Source: a virus. Taken from it: a stretch of 64,000 bases of DNA. The notes under the pieces were generated by a model. The model was not told where the DNA came from. It ran no database searches and saw nothing but the letters and a program-made list of their open reading frames with translations. Position numbers and translations under genes: made by a program. Location: positions 1 through 64,000 of the IMG/VR virus record IMGVR_UViG_3300028859_000013, one strand, 5' to 3'. This document shows, piece by piece, positions 2,920 to 53,601 of the stretch. Numbering within the stretch: position 1 is the first letter of the stretch; each line of letters starts with the position of its first letter.

Positions 2920-3717
2920 ATGAGTATTCTAAATTATAAAGGTTTTTTGGATATAAAGTATAAGAATGAACTAATTGATAAAATTCTTACTATAATTGAG
3001 CCAACGTTAGAAGATTTGCTGACTAAATATGAAGAAAGCAATTTCGATGAAACAGGTAGATATTTTACAGAATTTCAAAAGGAAAATACATTATTGTATT
3101 TGATATTTGATATGGTGAAATCTATTGAAAAATATACAAAGTCATCTGATAAACTTATTGATTTGAGAACAAGATATTCTAATAAAGGAAATCTTGAAAT
3201 TTATGCAGAAATACAAAGAGATGAAGTATTTTATCCATTTTCTACTGAAGTTATAATAGCAGGTGGATATAATATTCAAAAATCTCATTATAGATATATT
3301 ACTAAAACTACTTTACCTCAAACTAATAATTCTGAGTTGACAAATATTTATGCAGAAAAAATTAAGAAATTAAATAAAACTGAAAAACTTCAAAAAGAAA
3401 TTGAGTATTATAAAAATATCATTTCATCTGCTGAAAAAGAAATATCAGAATCAATTAAATTATCAGATAAAGATATTTTTAATTTATTGCTAGATGAATC
3501 ATATGGTAGACTTATGTTGTTAACTTGGGAAACATTAGATAATGAATCTCATTCTAAACAAAATAATACTAAAGAAAGTTGGAATAAAGAACATCAAGAA
3601 TATGTAGATTACCTTATTGATAATTGGAAAAAACAACATATTTATTGGAAACAAGATAGAATAAAATCTTCCGAAATATCAATTAAAAAAATTAAAGATA
3701 AAATAAATAAATTGTGA
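2920..3717 (+). CDS. Phage protein of unknown function with coiled-coil segment
   Basis: This 265-residue protein is soluble and has no signal peptide or membrane segment. Residues of roughly 145-180 (EKIKKLNKTEKLQKEIEYYK and onwards) look like a coiled coil. The C-terminal 60 residues are lysine-, tryptophan- and histidine-rich. No known family was recognised. It is preceded by a host-type promoter and its stop codon TGA shares one base with the ATG of the next gene, so the two are coupled. Confidence 0.6.
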   Translation: MSILNYKGFLDIKYKNELIDKILTIIEPTLEDLLTKYEESNFDETGRYFTEFQKENTLLYLIFDMVKSIEKYTKSSDKLIDLRTRYSNKGNLEIYAEIQRDEVFYPFSTEVIIAGGYNIQKSHYRYITKTTLPQTNNSELTNIYAEKIKKLNKTEKLQKEIEYYKNIISSAEKEISESIKLSDKDIFNLLLDESYGRLMLLTWETLDNESHSKQNNTKESWNKEHQEYVDYLIDNWKKQHIYWKQDRIKSSEISIKKIKDKINKL

Positions 3718-4193
3718 TGATAGATAAATATGATAAATATAATTCAAGAATATCTTCAAGAAAATATATTGAGAAATTAGCAAAATCTATTTTACTATTA
3801 TTTAATCATATTATCAAAGAAGAAAATATTGATATTAAAATTAAACATAATTCATGGTGGAAATCAGAGAATGAATATTATATAAATTTTTATAAAGATG
3901 ATATCACATTAAGTAACATTTTTCATATTACATTTGATACTAAAGATAGCAAATTTGATGAATATGGTCCTTATATTCAAATAGCAATTGAAAATGGTAG
4001 TAATATAACAGATATGATAAAATGTGAAAAATTTTTATTGTTTATTAAAAAAATAATTTCTCCATTTGATTATAGTGGACAATATTATTTATTTTCTAAT
4101 TCATTTGATATAGATTCTATTCCATATTTAATTAAAGAGTTATCCATTAAAGATTATGATTTTTCAAATGATATTAAAAAATTTAATATTTGA
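3717..4193 (+). CDS. Phage protein of unknown function ending KKFNI
   Basis: The start is placed at the ATG of the TGATG junction with the upstream gene; a GTG just before it would add one residue. The protein has about 158 residues, mixed aromatic and charged, and ends DIKKFNI. That ending is shared with many tagged proteins of this window even though the N-terminus (MIDKYDKYNSR) matches the tag only loosely. It resembles its downstream neighbour in length and in a block around FDYSGQYYLFS (neighbour: KEDYGKYYSFS), so the two are probably diverged duplicates. Confidence 0.6.
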   Translation: MIDKYDKYNSRISSRKYIEKLAKSILLLFNHIIKEENIDIKIKHNSWWKSENEYYINFYKDDITLSNIFHITFDTKDSKFDEYGPYIQIAIENGSNITDMIKCEKFLLFIKKIISPFDYSGQYYLFSNSFDIDSIPYLIKELSIKDYDFSNDIKKFNI

Positions 4194-27518: not shown

Positions 27519-28763
27519 ATGGCAAAAAAAACCACACAAACTTCACAAAAAAATAGTTTTGATTTTTCGAATATTTCTGGATTGATTGATACTATGTCAA
27601 AAAAAGAAATTATTTCAATTGAAGATTTTGAAAAAGAAAAAAGTTTTATTTCAACTGGAGTGTATATTTTAGATGCGTTATTATCTAAAAGTATTTTACA
27701 TGGAGGTATATCTAATAATAGAATAACACTGTTGGCTGGGCCAAAACAAACAGGTAAATCGTTTCTTTCTCTAAACATAGCTAGAAATGCTCAAAAATTA
27801 GGATATAATATTATATGGATTGATACTGAATTTTCTATTGAAAAATCAGATTTTGATATGTATGGAATTGATACATCAGATTCTAATAAATTTATGTTAA
27901 TTAGAACTAATATAGTAGAAAAAATTAAAATGTTTATGACTTCTATGCTAGATGATATGACAAAATTAAAAGAAAAAGGTATGGATGTTTCTAAAACAAT
28001 TTTCTTTTTAGATTCAATTGGTATGCTATCATCAGAAAAAGAAAAGGCTGATACTCTTAAATTAGATATTAAACAAGATATGACACGTGCAAAACAAATA
28101 AAATCTCTTGTTAGACTTATAACAAATGACTTAGGATATTTGTCAATACCTCTTGTAGCAACGAATCATATTTATTTAACTCAAGATATGTTTCCTCAAA
28201 CTATCATGTCAGGTGGAGAAGGCTTGTATTATGCAGCTAGTAGTATAGTATTTTTAAGTGATGCAAAATTGAAAACTGGAGAAGAAGATGAAATGGATCT
28301 TGGACGCTCTGGTTCTATTATTACTGCAAAAGCAGGTAAAAATAGATTAGCTAAACCTAAGAAAGTTAAATTCGAAATTGATCATACAAAAGGTATTAAT
28401 CCATTTAAAGGTTTAGATCTGTTTTGTACACCTGAAAATTTTGATAAAATTGGAATTGCAAAAGTTAAACCAGTTGTAAATAAAGAAACAGGAGAAATAA
28501 CTTATCAATCATCTAATAGATGGTATGTTAAACATTTAGATAAAGCAGTCGCTACTGCTCAATTATTTAATAGAAAAGTATTTACGCAAGAAGTATTAGA
28601 AAAAATGGACCCAATAATTTATGATTATTTTAAATATCCATCATATGAAGAATGTATGAAAGAATTAGATGAAATTGATGAAAGATTGAACGAATTAGAA
28701 GATAAAGATATGCTAACTTCCGAAGAATTCGATATTGATTCAGATGATACATTATTTACTTAA
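27519..28763 (+). CDS. uvsX: UvsX-like RecA recombinase
   Basis: This 414-residue strand-exchange protein has Walker A GPKQTGKS (about 74-81), IIWIDTEFS after it, Walker B TIFFLDSIGML, and the L1/L2 region around VATNHIYLTQDMFPQTIMSG followed by GEGLYYAAS. It would catalyse homologous pairing for phage recombination-dependent replication and repair. The acidic C-terminal tail (LDEIDERLNELEDKDML onwards) resembles the regulatory tail of RecA proteins. It opens the rightward replication block and is followed by the helicase gene. Confidence 0.9.
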   Translation: MAKKTTQTSQKNSFDFSNISGLIDTMSKKEIISIEDFEKEKSFISTGVYILDALLSKSILHGGISNNRITLLAGPKQTGKSFLSLNIARNAQKLGYNIIWIDTEFSIEKSDFDMYGIDTSDSNKFMLIRTNIVEKIKMFMTSMLDDMTKLKEKGMDVSKTIFFLDSIGMLSSEKEKADTLKLDIKQDMTRAKQIKSLVRLITNDLGYLSIPLVATNHIYLTQDMFPQTIMSGGEGLYYAASSIVFLSDAKLKTGEEDEMDLGRSGSIITAKAGKNRLAKPKKVKFEIDHTKGINPFKGLDLFCTPENFDKIGIAKVKPVVNKETGEITYQSSNRWYVKHLDKAVATAQLFNRKVFTQEVLEKMDPIIYDYFKYPSYEECMKELDEIDERLNELEDKDMLTSEEFDIDSDDTLFT

Positions 28764-28829: not shown

Positions 28830-29549
28830 ATGGCAGATACAACAAACACAAATATGGAACGACATTATTTCGTTCACATTTTGGACAATCCTGATCAATT
28901 TTCAAAAGTAGATCCTTTTTTCTTTAGAAATTCGGATATTCAATTCATTTATACTGTAATAAGAGAAGAATATATTAAAAGCGATAGTCATACAGTACCA
29001 AGCATTAAGCAAATCTATTCAATGGTTAAATTGGCTGATTCAGATAATAAAGTAAATGATAAAGTAATAAAAATGCTTCTTCAATCTGATAATAGCGAGT
29101 TTAGCCCTGAATGGTTATTACCAATGTTCAAAGGTTGGAAAATTCAAAACCAATTAAAAGGCGATGTACTAAAAAGTATTGATATGGTCCGAGGTATAGA
29201 AGATGTAAATTATGATAATGCTCTCGAAATTGCCCAAAAAATGAAAGGTATGTTTGGTAACGTACTTTTAGTTGATGATGATGATAACGATTTAGGATCT
29301 GATTTTGATGACCCTGAATCTCATAAACAAATGATTTCTAAAAATTGTATACCTTCAGGATGGCCATGTATAGATAATATTTTAGGAGGAGGATGGAGTA
29401 AATCAACGTTAAATGTTATTATGGGGGAAACTAATGTTGGTAAATGCTCTCATTATCAGACATTTATAAAAATTAGAAATAAAAAAACAGGAAAAATAGA
29501 AGAAATTAGTATAGGGGATTTTTATGATTCAATTAAAAATAAAATATAA
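28830..29549 (+). CDS. Replicative helicase (gp41/DnaB-type), N-terminal half fused to N-terminal intein fragment
   Basis: Residues 1-205 are the N-terminal domain and start of the RecA fold of a DnaB/gp41-type helicase, reaching GGGWSKSTLNVIMGETNVGK. The protein then switches at Cys206 to a 34-residue intein start, CSHYQTFIKIRNKKTGKIEE followed by ISIGDFYDSIKNKI, and stops. The Walker A motif is thus cut between its lysine and the serine that begins the C-terminal extein at 31286. The missing half is encoded at 30923. After trans-splicing the helicase would have about 446 residues, a normal size for gp41. Confidence 0.9.
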   Translation: MADTTNTNMERHYFVHILDNPDQFSKVDPFFFRNSDIQFIYTVIREEYIKSDSHTVPSIKQIYSMVKLADSDNKVNDKVIKMLLQSDNSEFSPEWLLPMFKGWKIQNQLKGDVLKSIDMVRGIEDVNYDNALEIAQKMKGMFGNVLLVDDDDNDLGSDFDDPESHKQMISKNCIPSGWPCIDNILGGGWSKSTLNVIMGETNVGKCSHYQTFIKIRNKKTGKIEEISIGDFYDSIKNKI

Positions 29550-29551
29550 AA

Positions 29552-30665
29552 ATGAAATGTGAAATATGCGGAAAAGAATTTGATACTACTAAAGGTTTGT
29601 CTATTCATTTAACGAAATATCATAACGAAATAATTAAAAAAGAATATTATGATGAATATTTAAAAGATGAAAATGAAGGTATTTGTTATTTCTGCGGAGA
29701 AGAAGCAATTTTTAAAAATATTACAAATGGATATCATAGAATATGTAATTCTAAAATATGTTTAGGTAAAACTAGAGCAACAGCTACATATGAATTTTTA
29801 ATGTATAAATATAATTTATCTGAAATAGATTCAATCAAATTATTAAATAGTAGAATTAAAGATAATAGTATAAAAACTAAAAATGGATTACAAAAAAGTT
29901 TTGAAAAAAACGAAAATTTTTTTAAAGAAAAATCCAGACAATGCGTTGAATATTGGCTAAAAAAAGGATATTCACAAGAAGATTCTGAAATAGAAGTCAA
30001 AAAATCTTTTGATGATATTCATACTAAAACATGGAAAAAACGTAGAGAAAATCCAGAATTATATCAAGATGTTAATACTACTCAAATAGGATATTGGTTA
30101 AAAAAAGGATATTCACAAGAAGAATCAGAATATAAAATAAAAGAGAGACAGAAAACATTTACAATTGAAAAATGTATTCAAAAATATGGTAAATCTGAAG
30201 GATTGAATATTTGGACTGAAAGACAAAAAAATTGGAGTGAAAAAATTGAAATTATGTATAAAGATGGACTTTTCGTAAAATTTAGAAAAGAACCATATTC
30301 TAATAGTGAAATAGAATTATTTTCTGAAGTTTCTAAAAATTTTGATAAATTTTATTTTGGTGATAATCAATTTTATAGATATATTAAAGATATAGGTAAA
30401 ACATTTGCATATGATTTTGTTTGTAAAAAAAAAGGTTATAGAATTTAATGGTGATTATTGGCATTGCAATCCTTTAATTTATAAAGAAGATTTTTTTAAT
30501 AAAAGTAAACAAATGTTTGCAAAAGATATATGGAATTATGATAAAATTAAAATAGATTCAATTGAAAAACTTGGTTATAAAGCATTAATAATTTGGGAAT
30601 ATGATTACAATAATAATAAACAAAAAGTTGTACAGCAATGTATAGATTTTATAAAAAATGATTAA
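29552..30665 (+). pseudogene. Vsr-like homing endonuclease nested in split helicase, frameshifted
   Basis: The first frame (29552-30448, 298 residues) starts with a zinc-finger-like MKCEICGKEFDTTKGLSIHL and a second Cys-rich block. Repeats of the type YWLKKGYSQEDSE follow, and the frame runs into AYDFVCKKK. The catalytic core then continues in another frame, to 30665: VIEFNGDYWHCNP, then YKALIIWEYD. The shift falls in a run of nine adenines (30425-30433); removing one base restores a 371-residue enzyme. Such Vsr-fold nucleases are the family associated with fractured split-intein genes. The frameshift may be real, compensated by slippage, or a sequencing error. The start lies two bases after the helicase stop. 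Confidence 0.8.
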
Positions 30666-30666
30666 T

Positions 30667-30933
30667 ATGAGTGATTTTGAAAAGTATATAATAGAATTTA
30701 TAGAAGAAAATGTAGGTGAATATGATGAAATACATATATCAAAATATTTATCTGATAAAATAGAACAATTTGATAATTTTGAAATATATGATGGAGAACA
30801 ATCAATTGTTGGAGATACATATATTGGTAATTTAATATTAACTGATAAAATAATTGAAGTGTTTTATAATATTTTATATGATAATGATGATATAGAATTT
30901 AAACAAAAGGAAGAAGTTGAATATGATAAGTGA
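30667..30933 (+). CDS. Small acidic protein inside the split-helicase locus
   Basis: An 88-residue acidic protein starts MSDFEKYIIEFIEENVGEYD; an ATG nine bases earlier (30658) is an alternative that overlaps the endonuclease stop. It overlaps the C-terminal helicase half by eleven bases. I recognise no domain. It could be a partner of the endonuclease or an anti-restriction-type acidic protein; neither is shown. Confidence 0.5.
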   Translation: MSDFEKYIIEFIEENVGEYDEIHISKYLSDKIEQFDNFEIYDGEQSIVGDTYIGNLILTDKIIEVFYNILYDNDDIEFKQKEEVEYDK

Positions 30934-32011
30934 TAATATATATAAAAAATTTGTAGAAACATTTGATGTAGAAGATTGGGAAATTGAAACTGATAATGGT
31001 TGGTCTGATATTAAAGAAATTGGTAAGACTATAGAATATGTTGAGTGGGTATTAAAAACATCGGATGATTTTAGTTTGATATGCGCAGATACTCATATTG
31101 TTTTTGATGAAAATTTCAATGAAGTTTTTGTTAAATATTTGAAAATTGGAGATAAAATAATAACAAAAAATGGTATAAGTGATGTGACAGAAGTTTATGA
31201 AACAGAAAAATCATCTAATATGTATGATTTATCATTATCTGATGATAATCATAGATTTTATTCAGATGGAATTTTATCCCACAATTCAATGTGGTTACAT
31301 AATATAGCTACTAATGCAGCAAACGCTGGTACTAATGTATTACTTATTACATTAGAGATGGCTACAAGAAAAGTAATGAAGAGATTAGGTTCTATGAGAC
31401 TTAAAATTAAATCTGATGAGTATGATGAAAAATCAAAAGATCCAGTTTTCATGAAACAAAAATTAAATAATCTTAAATCACAATCAACTGTTGGTAATTT
31501 ATTCGATGCTCAACCAGGTAAAATATTTGTTAAAAAATATAATACCAGTGATTGTACTGTTACTGATATTGATAATTATATTAAAAAATTCGAAGAAGTT
31601 AAAAGAATTAAAGTTGGAATGGTAATCGTAGATTATATAAATATTATGTCAATTGAAAAAGGCTATGATATTACTAATATGCTTTACCTAAAAGGTAAAC
31701 ATTTAGCTGAAGGATTAAGACGTGTAGCAGATAAGTATGAATGTGCAGTTATAACTGCAACTCAAACCGATAAGAGCGTTTGGGGTGCTTCTGATATTAC
31801 ACTTAATGCTATTCCTGAAAGTAAAGCGATAGCAGATACATCTGATTCAGTCTGGGGGATCATAAGAAATCCCGAAATGAAAAGAAATAATAGTTATAGA
31901 TTAAAAATATTAAAGTTAAGAGATGGTGAACATCATGAAGAACAAGTTAGATTTGATTTTAATACAAATTTTTTAACTATGGAGAATGATGTTTTAGTAG
32001 GAGTTAAATAA
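30923..32011 (+). CDS. Replicative helicase (gp41/DnaB-type), C-terminal half preceded by C-terminal intein fragment
   Basis: I place the start at the ATG at 30923 rather than an upstream TTG. Residues 1-121 are the C-intein, ending GILSHN. From Ser122 the sequence is helicase: SMWLHNIATNAANAGTNVLL followed by ITLEM, the Walker B segment KVGMVIVDYINIMS, and ITATQTDKSVWG near the end. LRRVADKYECAVITATQ is typical of DnaB-family hexameric helicases. Trans-splicing with the 28830 product is needed for an intact P-loop. The gene is followed six bases later by another endonuclease gene. Confidence 0.9.
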   Translation: MISDNIYKKFVETFDVEDWEIETDNGWSDIKEIGKTIEYVEWVLKTSDDFSLICADTHIVFDENFNEVFVKYLKIGDKIITKNGISDVTEVYETEKSSNMYDLSLSDDNHRFYSDGILSHNSMWLHNIATNAANAGTNVLLITLEMATRKVMKRLGSMRLKIKSDEYDEKSKDPVFMKQKLNNLKSQSTVGNLFDAQPGKIFVKKYNTSDCTVTDIDNYIKKFEEVKRIKVGMVIVDYINIMSIEKGYDITNMLYLKGKHLAEGLRRVADKYECAVITATQTDKSVWGASDITLNAIPESKAIADTSDSVWGIIRNPEMKRNNSYRLKILKLRDGEHHEEQVRFDFNTNFLTMENDVLVGVK

Positions 32012-32017
32012 TAAAAA

Positions 32018-32896
32018 ATGGGAAAAAGATTAACTAATGATATATTTATAGAAAGATCAAATATAATTCATAATAATTTTTATAGTTATCCAAATACTAA
32101 TTATATAAATAATGATTGTTATGTGAAAATTGTATGTCCTAAACATGGAGAATTTATTCAAAATGCTAAATCTCATTTGGATGGACATGGATGCTCGGAA
32201 TGTGGAAATAATCATTTTACTACAATTAATTATATAGAAAAAGTTAATATTATTCATAATTTTAAATATAAATATGATAAAACTATTTTTATTAATTATA
32301 GTAGCGATATTATTATTTATTGTGATAGACATGGATATTTTTCACAAAATACTAAACTACATTTAAATGGCCATGGATGTCCAAAATGTGCAAATAATGT
32401 TTATACTAAAAAAGAAATATTAGAAAAAGCTAATAATATACATAATTTTAAATATAAGTATGATGATTTTGAGTTAGATAAAAGAATGAATGAAACTATT
32501 TTAACTATTTATTGCAAAAAACATGGTAAATTTAATCAAAGATTGAACAATCATATACATCAAGCTAATGGCTGCCCGCTGTGTAGTGAATCTAAAGGTG
32601 AGATTGAAATTGAAAATATATTAATTGATAAATTTATTAAACACGAAAGACAAAAAAAATTTGAAAAATGTAAAAATAATAAAAAATTACCTTTTGATTT
32701 TTATCTAATAGATTATAATATATGTATAGAATATGATGGTATACAGCATTATAGTCCAATATATGGAGAAGATAATTTAATTAAAACAAATAAAAATGAT
32801 AATATTAAAAATGAATTTTGCTTAAATAATAATATAAGATTAATAAGAATAAAATATGATGAGAATATCATTGAGAAATTAGAATTTCTCAAATAA
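32018..32896 (+). CDS. Vsr-like endonuclease with three Cys/His zinc-binding repeats
   Basis: This 292-residue protein has three copies of a roughly 60-residue unit of the form HNxxYxYxx, IxCxxHGxFxQxxxxHLxGxGC, PxC. These probably bind zinc and DNA. A C-terminal nuclease domain follows, with FERQKKFEKC-type motif, LPFDFYLIDYNICIEYDGIQ and then NEFCLNNNIRLIRIKY. The D-x-(x)n-E-Y-D-G-x-Q-H core is that of Vsr/PD-(D/E)xK-like homing enzymes. It is a paralogue of the gene at 33622. It lies directly after the split helicase, as expected of a free-standing homing gene. Confidence 0.8.
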   Translation: MGKRLTNDIFIERSNIIHNNFYSYPNTNYINNDCYVKIVCPKHGEFIQNAKSHLDGHGCSECGNNHFTTINYIEKVNIIHNFKYKYDKTIFINYSSDIIIYCDRHGYFSQNTKLHLNGHGCPKCANNVYTKKEILEKANNIHNFKYKYDDFELDKRMNETILTIYCKKHGKFNQRLNNHIHQANGCPLCSESKGEIEIENILIDKFIKHERQKKFEKCKNNKKLPFDFYLIDYNICIEYDGIQHYSPIYGEDNLIKTNKNDNIKNEFCLNNNIRLIRIKYDENIIEKLEFLK

Positions 32897-32917: not shown

Positions 32918-33625
32918 ATGAAAAATGATGAAGAAATAAATGACGATTTGAATGAAGATTTGGATAACGATTTAGATTTGGAAGAAGATTTAGAAGAAGA
33001 TTTGAATCTATTAGATGAAAATTTAGATGACTCGTCTGAAGAAGATGCATTAGTATCTGATGAATCTATTGATGAAGATGATGAAGATGATGAAGATAAT
33101 GAAATAGATATAATGGTTAAATTCAATACAAATAATCATAAAATTGAAGGTAAACATGCATTATCTAGAGATACAATATTTAAAGGTAAAGTTGAAGATA
33201 ATGTAGATCAGCAAGAATATGATTATAATATTAATCAACAAGAAGATTTTAATTTAAATGATGGATTGCCGATAGAAGCTGGATCATCGTATGAATTTGA
33301 AAGTAAACATTATGAAGATTACGTAGATAGATTAAATTTGCAAAGAGATATTTATGATTTATTAAGTGAGAAAACAGATTTGGATTTTTCTTCAAATAGA
33401 AGAAAACCAAATAAGCAAGCATTTAACGATTATTATAGAATGTTATTAAATAATATTGGAAAAGAATATAGTAAATCTGAAATATTTGTAGAACTTTCTT
33501 ATTATTTCACAGACAACATCTTCAATATGTTTAAATTATTAGATAAAGAATATGCAACACGTATAATAGTAGAATTAAAACAGCGTGGTCATTTAACAAA
33601 TTTAAACAATATAAATTTTATATGA
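32918..33625 (+). CDS. Acidic phage protein of unknown function
   Basis: This 235-residue protein has an extremely acidic first 65 residues, almost all D, E, L and N, followed by a globular part with DRLNLQRDIYDLLSEKTDLD and a helical end. Acidic leaders can mimic DNA or bind a basic partner. It lies between two homing endonuclease genes in the replication block, so it may be a replication or transcription accessory protein. No family was recognised. Confidence 0.6.
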   Translation: MKNDEEINDDLNEDLDNDLDLEEDLEEDLNLLDENLDDSSEEDALVSDESIDEDDEDDEDNEIDIMVKFNTNNHKIEGKHALSRDTIFKGKVEDNVDQQEYDYNINQQEDFNLNDGLPIEAGSSYEFESKHYEDYVDRLNLQRDIYDLLSEKTDLDFSSNRRKPNKQAFNDYYRMLLNNIGKEYSKSEIFVELSYYFTDNIFNMFKLLDKEYATRIIVELKQRGHLTNLNNINFI

Positions 33626-34491
33626 GCAAAGTAAAAAATGTAGATGATTATATAAAAGAAGTTTCAATAATACATAATTATTATTATGATTATAGTTTAG
33701 TTTTATATATTAATGCTCATACTAAAATAAAAATTATTTGTCCAATACATGGAATATTTGAACAAGAACCTCTTAATCATAAGAGATATGGTTGTAAAAA
33801 ATGTGGTAAATTATTAGATGAAAAAGTTGTATTAAATAGATGTACTAAAATACATGGAGATAGATATGATTATTCTAAATTTAAATATATTGGTATGTAT
33901 AATAATTCTACTATAATATGTAAAATTCATGGTGAATTTGAACAACAAGTGATTAATCATTTAGCAGGTAAAGGTTGTCAAAAATGTGCACCAAATTATA
34001 AAAAAGATAAAAAAACGATTTTAAATAAATTAAATAAAGTTCATAATAATAAATATGATTATTCATTGTCTATTTTTAATAGAACAAAGGATATAATAAA
34101 AATAATATGTCCTTTACATGGAGAATTTGAACAAATATTAAATAATCATTTAAGAGGAAATGGTTGTCCTTTATGTGATGAAAGTAAAGGAGAAAGAGCG
34201 GTAGAAAGTTATCTAATAGAGCATGATATTATTTTTGAAAGACAAAAAAAATTTGAAGGTTGTATGAATAAAAGATTATTATCTTTTGATTTTTATTTAC
34301 CTGATTATAATTTATGTATAGAATTCGATGGTGCTCAGCATTTTATAGAAGTTCTTAATTGGGGTAATCTTGAATATACTAAAGAAAATGATGAAATTAA
34401 AAATATTTTTTGTTTAAATAATAATATTGATTTATATAGAATATCATATAAAGATAATATACTTGGTAGATTAAATGCCAAATTTAAATAA
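33622..34491 (+). CDS. Vsr-like endonuclease with zinc-binding repeats, paralogue of 32018
   Basis: This 289-residue protein has the same design as the gene at 32018: three units of IICPIHGIFEQxxxNHxxxGCKKC type, then GERAVESYLIEHDIIFERQK and LLSFDFYLPDYNLCIEFDGA followed by QHF. The two share about half of their core residues by eye. Its ATG overlaps the stop of the acidic protein gene (ATGA). It precedes nrdJ by 77 bases, so a homing site in or near nrdJ is likely. Confidence 0.8.
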   Translation: MSKVKNVDDYIKEVSIIHNYYYDYSLVLYINAHTKIKIICPIHGIFEQEPLNHKRYGCKKCGKLLDEKVVLNRCTKIHGDRYDYSKFKYIGMYNNSTIICKIHGEFEQQVINHLAGKGCQKCAPNYKKDKKTILNKLNKVHNNKYDYSLSIFNRTKDIIKIICPLHGEFEQILNNHLRGNGCPLCDESKGERAVESYLIEHDIIFERQKKFEGCMNKRLLSFDFYLPDYNLCIEFDGAQHFIEVLNWGNLEYTKENDEIKNIFCLNNNIDLYRISYKDNILGRLNAKFK

Positions 34492-37149: not shown

Positions 37150-37232
37150 AATCCACATATTTCACGGTTATGACTACCATAATTTAATATATAGATTATG
37201 GTAAAATATAAAAAATGTGAAATATGTGGATT
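37150..37232 (+). promoter_or_regulatory. Nested inverted repeats enclosing the start codon of the 37198 endonuclease gene
   Basis: The 16 bases AATCCACATATTTCAC (37150-37165) are perfectly complementary to 37217-37232. Inside, TACCATAAT (37175-37183) pairs with ATTATGGTA (37195-37203), which covers the ATG at 37198. The loop holds TTTAATATATAG, the presumed late-promoter sequence. A long transcript from nrdJ would hide the start codon, whereas a short one from the loop would not. Confidence 0.65.
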
Positions 37233-38229
37233 AACTTTTCCTTATACTACTGGAAAATTTACAATTCATTTAATGGAAGAACACAATATATCTTTAAAAG
37301 ATTATATTATTAAATATGAATTAGATGGTATAACTCCAAAATGTCAATGTGGTTATTGTGATGATGATGCACCTTTTTATAGAGGTACATTTTTGACTAA
37401 AAGTAGTGAACATAAAAAATATAAATCTTTAAAGGAAGGTTATATAAAAAAATATGGTATACCTAAATGTGTAAATTGTGGAGAAGATGTAAAATGGCAT
37501 AGAGGAATACCAAATATTTATTGCTCACCAAGTTGTTTTCCTTGTCAATGGAATCAAGAGAAAGTTAAACAAACTGTTAAAGAAAGATATGGAGTAGATA
37601 ATGTATCATTTTTAGATGAAGTTAAAGAAAAAATATCAAAATCTAAAAATGAAAAAAATGAAAATGAAAAAAATGAAATTTTAAATAAAATTAAAAAAAC
37701 TTGTTTAGAAAGATATGGTACAGTATCTTTTTTTAGTACTAAATTATTTTATGATAAAAATAAAACAACTATGCTTGAAAGATATGAAGTAGATCATCCT
37801 TCTAAAATGATGAAGAATAGGGAGAGTGCAAGTAAGAGAATGATAGAAAATAATTCAAATTTTGATTTGGATTTTAGAAATTGTTATAACATTAAGAGAT
37901 ATAAAGATACTGATTTGTGTTATCAGAGTTCATATGAAGAAGACTTTTTAGATTTATGTGATAAGTATCAAATACTTAATAAAGTTGAAAATGGACATAC
38001 ATATAAGTTTTTAGAAGAAGATTATTCATATGGATTAAGGACAATTACTGATTTTTGTATTGATGATATGGAGATTGAGATTAAATCATCTTATATATTA
38101 GAGAAACAAGGAGGAGAAGAAGTTATTGATATAAAAAGAAAATCTGTTAAAAGAGCAGGTAAATATTATTTATTAATTTTAGATAAAAATTATTCTGAGT
38201 TTAATAAGTATTTCAAAAAATTATTTTAA
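37198..38229 (+). CDS. Homing endonuclease with zinc fingers and NUMOD-like repeats
   Basis: This 343-residue protein starts with CEICGLTFPYTTGKFTIHLM (a C2H-type finger) and further CxC clusters (CQCGYC, CVNCGEDVKWH, CSPSC). Repeats of the type VKERYGVDNVSF and CLERYGTVSF follow, which resemble DNA-binding modules of phage homing enzymes. The C-terminal part (YQSSYEEDFLDLCDKYQ, TITDFCIDDMEIEIKSSY) fits a PD-(D/E)xK-like nuclease with D, E-x-K. It lies right after nrdJ and its start codon is buried in a hairpin. Confidence 0.75.
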   Translation: MVKYKKCEICGLTFPYTTGKFTIHLMEEHNISLKDYIIKYELDGITPKCQCGYCDDDAPFYRGTFLTKSSEHKKYKSLKEGYIKKYGIPKCVNCGEDVKWHRGIPNIYCSPSCFPCQWNQEKVKQTVKERYGVDNVSFLDEVKEKISKSKNEKNENEKNEILNKIKKTCLERYGTVSFFSTKLFYDKNKTTMLERYEVDHPSKMMKNRESASKRMIENNSNFDLDFRNCYNIKRYKDTDLCYQSSYEEDFLDLCDKYQILNKVENGHTYKFLEEDYSYGLRTITDFCIDDMEIEIKSSYILEKQGGEEVIDIKRKSVKRAGKYYLLILDKNYSEFNKYFKKLF

Positions 38230-51789: not shown

Positions 51790-51848
51790 ATAAACTTTAT
51801 ATTAAAATATTTATATATAGGAGAAATAGAAACATATATAAAGTTTAT
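51790..51848 (+). promoter_or_regulatory. Inverted repeat covering the start codon of the 51847 endonuclease gene
   Basis: ATAAACTTTATAT (51790-51802) is complementary to ATATAAAGTTTAT (51836-51848), which contains the first bases of the ATG. The loop carries TTTATATATAGGAG, with a promoter-like TATATAG and a rare GGAG. The arrangement mirrors that at 37150-37232. Confidence 0.6.
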
Positions 51849-53601
51849 GAATAAAGAAGAAAATATAGAAAAAATAAAAAAAGAAAATGGTACATCAGGA
51901 AAAATGTATAATGAGAAATACATTAAAAATAATTATCCTGAAATTTTTAAAGATGTTATAGAATTTTGTAGTAGTGATAAATTGATAGATTTACCTTTTA
52001 AAGAAAAAATTTATCATTATGTTAATGATTTAAAAGAAATTTTATATTGTTCAAATCCAAATTGTAATAATATAGTTAAGTTTAAGAATTCAACGATAGG
52101 ATATCATAAACATTGCTCTAAAGGTTGTACGAGTAAAGATCCGAATATTAAACAACAAAAAGAAGATAATTCATATATAAAATATGGAACTAAAGCACCA
52201 GGAATGAATAATGATATTAAAGAAAAAATGATAAAAACCAATCAGGAAAGATATGGCGGTAATAGTCCTATGCAAAATATTGAAATACAAGAAAAATCTA
52301 AAAAAACATTATTTAAAAATTATGGTGTATATAATTTAAACGATTCAGAAGAAATTGTAAAAAGAAGAATCGAATCATTTAAAAAAAGTAATTATAAAGA
52401 AAATTATACTAATACTATGATGTCCCGTTATGGAGTAAAATATACATTTCAAAATGAAGATTTTTATAAAAAATCTAAAGAAACATTATTTAAAAATTAT
52501 GGAGTATTTAATCCTTATGAAAATAAAGAGATATTAGACAGAGCACAAAAGAAAAGAAAAAATACTATTAAAAATAATAAAATATTGAATCAAGATAATA
52601 ATATAATTGATGTTGATTATGATACAAGAGAATATTTGATGAATTGTGATGTTGGAAAAAATCATACATTTAAAATTAGTTTTGAATTATATAAATCTAG
52701 AAAGCAATTTGCTAATTATAAATGTACTGAATGCTTTCCAGAACATTTCAATCAAACTTCAATGAGTGAATTCGAATTATTAAATTTTATACAAAAACAT
52801 TATAAAGACGAAATAGTAGTTAATAGCAAAAAAATTATTTATCCTTTTGAATTAGATATTTATTTACCAGAAATAAATATTGCATTTGAATTTAATGGTA
52901 TTTATTGGCATGATGAACAGCACAAATCAAGTGATTATCATTTAAAAAAGACTGAATTATGTGACGAAAATGGTATTAAATTAATTCATATATGGGAAGA
53001 TGATTGGATGTATAAAAATGATATAGTAAAATCAAATATTTTAAATATTTTAAGTATAAAAACAAATATTATAGATGTAAATGATTGTGATATAAAAGAA
53101 ATAACTAATAGTGAAGTTATTAAAGATTTTTTAGAAAAAAATCATATTCAAGGATTTATAGATTCACAAATTAAAATAGGATTATATCATAATAATGAAT
53201 TAATTAGTTTAATGAATTTTGAAAATAATATTGAATCATATGAATTATTAAGATTTTGTAATAAGTTAAATACTAATATTATTGGCGGATATGATAAATT
53301 ATTCAAATATTTTGTTATAAATTATGAACCAACGGAAATTATAGCATATTTTGATAGAAGTTGGAGTTATGATAAAATATATGAAAATTTAGGATTTGAA
53401 TTAGTACATAAATCTCAATCTAATTATTCTTATGTTATTGATGGTATTCGTAAAAATAGATTTAATTTTGGCAAATCTATTTTAATAAAAGAAGGATATT
53501 CAAGTGAAAAAACTGAAAGTGAGATTATGTTAGAAAGAAAAATTTATAGAATTTATGATTCTGGACAATTAAAATTTATATGGAAAGATAAACAAATTTG
53601 A
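51847..53601 (+). CDS. Large Vsr-like homing endonuclease with NUMOD-like repeats
   Basis: This 584-residue protein has a zinc-binding region (YCSNPNCNNIVKFKNSTIGY, HKHCSKGC). Repeats of KTNQERYGGNSPMQN, KTLFKNYGVYNLND and SRYGVKYTFQN type follow, then a Cys-containing segment. The nuclease domain at about 325-400 has the core YPFELDIYLPEINIAFEFNG followed by IYWHDE and IKLIHIWEDDW. About 190 further residues (FLEKNHIQGFIDSQIKIGLY, FDRSWSYDKIYENLGFEL) resemble an acyltransferase-like extension seen in some of these nucleases. It sits after the sheath gene. Confidence 0.82.
   Translation: MNKEENIEKIKKENGTSGKMYNEKYIKNNYPEIFKDVIEFCSSDKLIDLPFKEKIYHYVNDLKEILYCSNPNCNNIVKFKNSTIGYHKHCSKGCTSKDPNIKQQKEDNSYIKYGTKAPGMNNDIKEKMIKTNQERYGGNSPMQNIEIQEKSKKTLFKNYGVYNLNDSEEIVKRRIESFKKSNYKENYTNTMMSRYGVKYTFQNEDFYKKSKETLFKNYGVFNPYENKEILDRAQKKRKNTIKNNKILNQDNNIIDVDYDTREYLMNCDVGKNHTFKISFELYKSRKQFANYKCTECFPEHFNQTSMSEFELLNFIQKHYKDEIVVNSKKIIYPFELDIYLPEINIAFEFNGIYWHDEQHKSSDYHLKKTELCDENGIKLIHIWEDDWMYKNDIVKSNILNILSIKTNIIDVNDCDIKEITNSEVIKDFLEKNHIQGFIDSQIKIGLYHNNELISLMNFENNIESYELLRFCNKLNTNIIGGYDKLFKYFVINYEPTEIIAYFDRSWSYDKIYENLGFELVHKSQSNYSYVIDGIRKNRFNFGKSILIKEGYSSEKTESEIMLERKIYRIYDSGQLKFIWKDKQI

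Follow-up and report, generated by a model that had tools for sequence, protein, structure and literature searches.

How could a phage obtain one replicative helicase from two genes that part company in the middle of the P-loop? This question is raised by the virus record IMGVR_UViG_3300028859_000013 of IMG/VR, of which positions 1 to 64,000 were analysed (the window, meaning this whole stretch of 64,000 nucleotides) and in which the coding sequence of a gp41/DnaB-type helicase is divided over two genes, with the break inside the Walker A motif. We consider it very probable that the fractured gene is restored by an atypically split intein which lies in the P-loop and splices in trans. A first-pass annotation, made from the letters alone, had proposed this same core reading, i.e., a fractured gp41-type helicase with a P-loop intein cut between blocks A and B, and homologues, empty sites, profiles and models support it.

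A helicase gene pair broken inside Walker A

Each half of the helicase is a separate gene with its own start and stop, in the window as well as in the split relatives. The features of the pair in the window are as follows.

28830-29549, + strand: N-half open reading frame (ORF), 239 amino acids (aa), made up of 205 extein and 34 intein residues, the latter starting with Cys
28830..29444, + strand: N-extein, the first 205 helicase residues, ending in ...GETNVGK (phrog_19, E 1.4e-16; aligned to uninterrupted homologues)
29424..29444, + strand: 5' part of Walker A (GETNVGK), with the insertion point after K
29445..29549, + strand: intein N-fragment (IntN), 34 codons and a stop, with Cys1 and, as predicted, two strands and the first helix
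30923..31285, + strand: intein C-fragment (IntC), 121 codons from its own ATG (TIGR01443, PDB match to VidaL, conserved columns)
31286..32011, + strand: C-extein, Ser+1 of Walker A and the remaining helicase, 241 residues and a stop (phrog_19, E 1.9e-41; Pfam DnaB_C, E 8e-16)

The N-half reads ...GETNVGK followed by Cys, and the C-half, whose frame is open from a TTG at 30917 and has an ATG at 30923, reads ...GILSHN followed by SMWLHN. Both halves match phrog_19 (DnaB-like replicative helicase) at adjoining positions of the model (160-366 for the N-half and 368-575 for the C-half), and the 205 and 241 extein residues add up to 446 aa after excision. The break had been placed by the first-pass annotation between Lys and Ser of Walker A, with fragments of 34 and 121 residues and a 446-residue product; the ORFs, translations and coordinates agree with this and all three numbers are correct.

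We then scanned IMG/VR with the C-half, which yielded 47 loci: 13 with the intein at the helicase site (L009-L021), 26 uninterrupted (L022-L047) and eight that matched in the intein part only (L048-L055), where the gene is TerL in the four that were read (L048, L050, L053 and L055). GETNVGK runs without a gap into SMWL in 27 of 27 uninterrupted homologues, i.e., the 26 IMG/VR loci, many of which are near-identical to one another, and a 735-kb phage record. Exact in-frame removal of the intein from the window thus restores the host protein with the same junction residues as in the 27 empty sites. The break of the window is shared by 12 of the 13 intein-bearing loci, the remaining one (L014) being cut off upstream; over 11,086 bases, L009 and L010 do not differ from the window, and L017 and L018 match each other over the region compared. 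A match to the gp41 of S-SSM7 over most of the C-half was set aside, since its annotation shows a single uninterrupted gene (1386 bases), and the extended alignment was taken for chance.

Intein identity, predicted fold and position of the split

IntC passes the NCBIfam model of intein C-termini (TIGR01443) with 22.3 bits against a cut-off of 15.6, and its best PDB match is VidaL. A profile built from 12 rows of relatives matched VidaL (6vgv, E 2e-9), gp41-1 (5e-6), PolB16 (7e-4) and NrdJ-1 (0.009), and CatC (6dsl) was a weak match by sequence (E 0.29, and 0.0064 by profile). The fragment carries a block B-like CADTHIVF, a block F-like NMYDLSLSDDNHRFY and the C-terminal GILSHN. H58 (block B-like), H110, H120 and N121 are invariant in 12 of 12 aligned rows, two of which are TerL inteins; the terminal S-H-N is likewise invariant in these rows, with S or T at the +1 position. 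Cys1 is found in the window and in all 56 split sequences of the wider family described below, where the search pattern allowed Cys or Ser. With Cys1, the histidines of blocks B and F, the C-terminal His-Asn and Ser+1, the window intein would belong to class 1 by its sequence, and it is probably active. Matches to the window IntC at E<=0.01 were found in 320 phage records, 30 of which were listed.

Naturally fused relatives allow the fold to be predicted. These are L139 (176 aa) and L119 (153 aa), both in TerL, and four Ackermannviridae TerL records. The AlphaFold2 model of the fused L139 has an intein fold (predicted local distance difference test, pLDDT, 84; predicted template modelling score, pTM, 0.76) with strands at residues 7-12 and 18-22, a helix at 23-36, a disordered stretch at 40-59 (pLDDT <50) and then the remaining fold; the alignment used for modelling left out the IntN rows, which MAFFT had misaligned. 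Foldseek placed VidaL first (E 1e-10, 18% identity in the alignment) and other inteins next, so that the model predicts the HINT fold for this fused relative. The IntN register of the window was taken from relatives and its secondary structure from the L139 model: by sequence order, IntN corresponds to L139 residues 1 to ~34, and the cut in the window therefore falls after the first helix. Atypically split inteins in nature are cut after either strand 2 (S1: VidaL, PolB16) or helix 1 (S2: AceL TerL, GOS TerL), and their IntN has 15-37 aa (PMC13014065). On the model, the window split would be of the atypical S2 kind, with a short IntN ending after the first helix as in the AceL and GOS TerL inteins, and its fragments of 34 and 121 aa do not follow the canonical size pattern of gp41-1 and gp41-8 (IntN ~100 aa, IntC ~35-40 aa).

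We propose the following mechanism. The first gene would give the 205 N-terminal residues fused to the 34-residue IntN, and the second the 121-residue IntC fused to the 241 C-terminal residues. IntN and IntC would bind each other and so complete the HINT fold of a class 1 intein, whose trans-splicing would join GETNVGK to SMWLHN and thereby restore Walker A in an active 446-residue helicase. The homing endonuclease (HEN) gene between the halves, of the Vsr/EDxHD type, would move, or would once have moved, the cassette into empty P-loop sites. The splicing, its rate, the dependence of the helicase on it and the target of the endonuclease are what we infer from these comparisons. Nothing in them supports the fast splicing that the first-pass annotation had suggested.

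Endonuclease, mobility and rival readings

The region between the halves and the gene upstream of the pair comprise the following.

29552..30448, + strand: first part of the HEN ORF, with a C2H2-like zinc finger and a helical middle region
30405..30665, + strand: catalytic part of the HEN in another frame, with the motif EFNGDYWHC (phrog_22677, E 3e-14; homing endonuclease phrog_3339, E 5e-5)
30658..30933, + strand: ORF of 91 aa that follows the endonuclease and runs into the start of the C-half
27519-28763: uvsX, before the helicase ORF pair

The first part of the HEN is 50-72% identical to the HENs of relatives, its zinc-finger matches being below the Pfam cut-offs. In the window, the frame changes behind nine consecutive A (30425-30433), and L009 and L010 agree with this; in the six relatives read, a HEN ORF of 352-375 aa stands open between the halves. 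A block IIEFNGDYWH is conserved in an alignment of 21 HEN proteins. We modelled the intact HEN of L015 (row L070; pLDDT 85, pTM 0.39), whose first matches were 1vsr at E 0.044 and, at E 0.047, the catalytic domain of I-Bth0305I (3r3p), the latter with a probability of 1.00 and a template modelling score of 0.70 by target; the Vsr/I-Bth0305I matches span E 0.044-0.056, none being below 0.001, and are weak by E-value. The Vsr-type endonuclease that had been read between the halves is thus present, and Vsr/I-Bth0305I-like in an intact relative, but it is frameshifted in the window genome. The 91-aa ORF has no match in Pfam or PHROG and, among the loci compared with the window, occurs only in copies identical to it. 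Elsewhere in the window, four further genes match homing or HNH endonuclease families (phrog_559, phrog_3339), at 32018-32896, 33622-34491, 37198-38229 and 51847-53601, the first two of which also match DUF723.

The histories of intein and extein differ. L077 and L073 share 82% identity in IntC and 61% in the C extein, and the window and L073 share 64% in IntC and 93% in the C extein; between L011 and L012, the proportion of synonymous differences (pS) is 0.25 in IntN, 0.34 in the HEN and 0.41 in IntC against 0.73 in the N extein and 0.60 in the C extein. The disagreement between intein and extein identities is indicative of mobility. In the N extein, the window has its highest identity with uninterrupted relatives (94%, L032), the intein-bearing ones reaching ~80%, and for the C extein the intein-bearing L011 and L073 (93%) and the uninterrupted L032 (92%) are about level. 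The ratio of nonsynonymous to synonymous differences (pN/pS), taken over pairs that are not independent, was 0.18-0.66 in IntC (below 1 in 36 of 36 pairs), 0.18-1.19 in IntN (below 1 in 35 of 36), 0.07-0.41 in the C extein and 0.12-0.77 in the HEN.

Several observations weigh against a spliced helicase. The alignment of both halves with intein profiles, suggested in the first-pass annotation, succeeds for the C part but not for the N-half, which matches no intein model in Pfam or NCBIfam; it is by comparison with relatives that its last 34 residues are identified as IntN. The Pfam model Intein_splicing scored 10.3 bits on the window, far under its cut-off of 35.8, and it had no match in the record from which the window is taken; this model is too insensitive for the present intein. 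The fold model is that of a fused relative at the TerL site and not of the two chains of the window together, and the identities of IntC and C extein are still moderately correlated (r 0.47, 13 sequences), so that part of the history is vertical. In L013, a broken N extein stands beside an intact-looking IntN: a short divergent patch with a stop (3560-3830) lies in the N extein just upstream of the insertion site, and could reflect a chimera, gene conversion or decay, the rest of this locus scoring like L012. Lastly, the endonuclease gene is broken in the window genome.

The last of these points is also the one which favours the best-surviving alternative, that splicing has been lost and the halves are a decaying pseudogene or a non-covalent two-chain helicase. 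We regard this as improbable, since both coding parts are open and, by pN/pS, under constraint, the catalytic residues are intact, and both halves persist in several lineages where the endonuclease gene is largely or wholly gone; in L016 and L020, for example, a HEN remnant of only ~30 residues is left and the helicase is still split. An unspliced N-half, moreover, would carry 34 extra residues in the ATP site.

Much less credible is an error of assembly or frame, in which case the endonuclease would in truth be a domain nested in one contiguous intein. Breaks at homopolymers, such as that of the endonuclease ORF, are a common type of error, and there are contiguous relatives. Nevertheless, in relatives whose endonuclease is open, IntN is followed by a stop and IntC is preceded by an ATG of its own, 56 of 75 family sequences are split, and the genes overlap or nearly touch in L088 and L136. 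The recurrence of the break in related contigs, together with the two contigs identical over 11,086 bases (not necessarily from independent samples), makes an assembly artefact very unlikely.

Removal of the interruption at the RNA level by a group I or II intron can practically be dismissed: introns that harbour an endonuclease gene are frequent in phage genes, and the insertion does contain such a gene, yet a comparison of 29300-31400 with Rfam was empty at E<=1, as was one of the window, L012, L019, L021 and L016 at the gathering score, the conserved protein motifs of the intein directly adjoin the junctions, and some relatives are fused in frame (in the alignment with these, the L144 row begins inside the intein). 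Restoration by trans-splicing is the reading we retain.

A wider family in motor genes and its known relatives

To place the window intein among its relatives, a profile of IntC was scanned, giving 163 loci. The best 80 of these and the loci of the other scans were merged, where identical, into 81 non-redundant IntC sequences (the window included as L056; L020 is not among them), of which 26 are in gp41, 48 in TerL (six of them at other, Cys+1 sites), six in gp46 and one in UvsX. Setting aside the six Cys+1 sequences leaves 75, and these comprise 56 split with a short IntN (28-57 aa), eight contiguous, six cut off upstream and five in which the pattern found no N-half. The split form accounts for 22 of 26 sequences in gp41, 28 of 42 in TerL and six of six in gp46. 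A cut between blocks A and B, which had been called rare, is hence the usual state among the non-redundant sequences of this family.

Between the halves of the 56 split sequences, a Vsr-like motif is found in 36, another long ORF in eight and neither in 12. The two genes are fewer than 450 bases apart in 13 of the 56, so that the split is maintained even without space for an endonuclease gene, although one of the 13 (L120) still shows the Vsr motif. L088 seemed doubtful at first, as the pattern ran into the C part, but on reading it is an overlapping gene pair in gp46. Several such breaks can stand side by side in one phage. In L134 (620-11987), a single 12-kb stretch holds three such genes, uvsX, gp41 and gp46, and in each of them Walker A is interrupted by a split intein of the short-IntN type whose halves are separated by a long ORF; its UvsX insertion lies between GESG and TAKT and not between GK and S/T (the N-half was seen by eye), and we are unsure of the place of this copy in the tree. 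In L116, gp41 and gp46 are both fractured.

The near family (71 rows from gp41, TerL and gp46) forms one group at 97/93 in the tree, and three genes within one group require at least two moves between non-orthologous genes. Two TerL rows are grouped with gp41 rows at 99/97 inside a gp41 group, and an approximately unbiased test, from which 13 of the 81 rows were left out as distant or long-branched, did not reject a single origin of the gp41 copies (p 0.306); more than two moves are suggested, not proven. With about even chances, we propose that a mobile split intein family specialised in P-loops crossed between gp41, TerL and gp46, in every case at the site between GK and S/T. The HEN gene stands at the S2 position, and on this proposal its entry there, and not at the canonical insertion point, would have created the atypical split; lineages would then have lost the endonuclease while staying split, and some of them would have re-fused. 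Where split relatives have the start of IntC, the fused L119 keeps a Met and the fused L139 has KLSDNVERKF.

Other inteins were also observed. A scan of genome contigs gave one match, L142 (DZAZ01000069.1), on a contig which was binned to a metagenome-assembled genome of Helicobacter cetorum and is probably phage DNA; its TerL has a split P-loop intein with an IntN of 51 aa and 153 bases between the halves. Besides the P-loop intein, a second, distant one is present at other, Cys+1 sites of TerL in L053 (4992-7146), L100, L102, L112, L114 and L144. In L050 (1199-3340), the frame of the TerL P-loop intein has no stop across a region where a second frame holds an ORF of 254 aa, HNH-like by eye. 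The uvsX of some relatives is interrupted (NHVYL, then C...SHN, then TQ) in L011 (1850-2558), L015 (300-2500), L028 (1550-3328), L043 (2001-3818) and L018 (2100-2678), at a site where the uvsX of the window is one open frame. The parts resemble a canonical split with long IntN and short IntC in L011, L015, L028 and L043, a long ORF, nuclease-like by eye, lies between them in L015, L028 and L043, and the uvsX intein of L018 is contiguous.

If it does splice, the window intein is one of the S2-split kind, with Ser+1 and an IntN of 34 residues, that resides in an essential replicative motor, and its dozens of natural split and fused relatives would be a source of orthogonal or better tools for semisynthesis. 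The origin of atypical splits also becomes testable, as relatives that are split with an endonuclease, split without one and fused all occur at one position.

Among known systems, gp41-1 matches the profile of the window family. Like the window intein, gp41-1 and gp41-8 are split inteins of a fractured gp41 helicase with an endonuclease gene between the halves, the insertion point of gp41-1 being other than that of the window. The fractured-gene arrangement with a Vsr/EDxHD endonuclease reportedly goes back to Dassa et al. 2009. That work is cited for the EDxHD/Vsr domain in PMC12350094. The likeness of the window HEN to the I-Bth0305I/Vsr-type (EDxHD) enzymes lies in the top fold matches of the intact relative; the window type differs in its extra N-terminal zinc finger and helical region, and is broken in the window genome. 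Naturally split inteins are typically described with an IntN of ~100 aa and an IntC of 35-40 aa (PMC10189870), compared with 34 and 121 aa in the window.

The AceL TerL, GOS TerL and Cat inteins (S2) share with it, the first two by their description, a short IntN cut after the first helix and a long IntC, with an IntN of 25 aa in AceL TerL and 30 aa in TerL CAT according to PMC13014065, against 34 aa here; they reside in terminase, and the window intein in gp41 at Walker A. VidaL, which the same paper describes as atypically split and cysteine-dependent with an S1 cut and a 16-aa IntN, comes nearest among the solved structures, both by sequence profile and, where L139 as a fused relative is concerned, by fold. 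The Ackermannviridae TerL P-loop inteins are of the same family (36-41% identity to the window IntC in the rows read) at the same site, between GK and T, but the four read (L144, L146, L147 and L148) are mini-inteins in one piece and lie in terminase; the TerL P-loop intein of Klebsiella phage Magnus is annotated as an intein in its record. According to Kelley et al. 2016 (PMC5050341), the position between Lys and Thr in TerL is a 'classic' P-loop intein site and the DnaB-b intein is akin to the TerL1-c/e inteins, so that the P-loop site and the kinship of inteins between genes were already known. A literature search found no description of a split intein in the gp41 P-loop or of an S2-split family at the P-loops of gp41, gp46 and TerL, which is weak evidence of novelty as key papers lay outside its coverage. 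In essence, the window intein is a real new member of the known class of atypically split (S2) inteins, and its family is broader than the literature passages compared describe.

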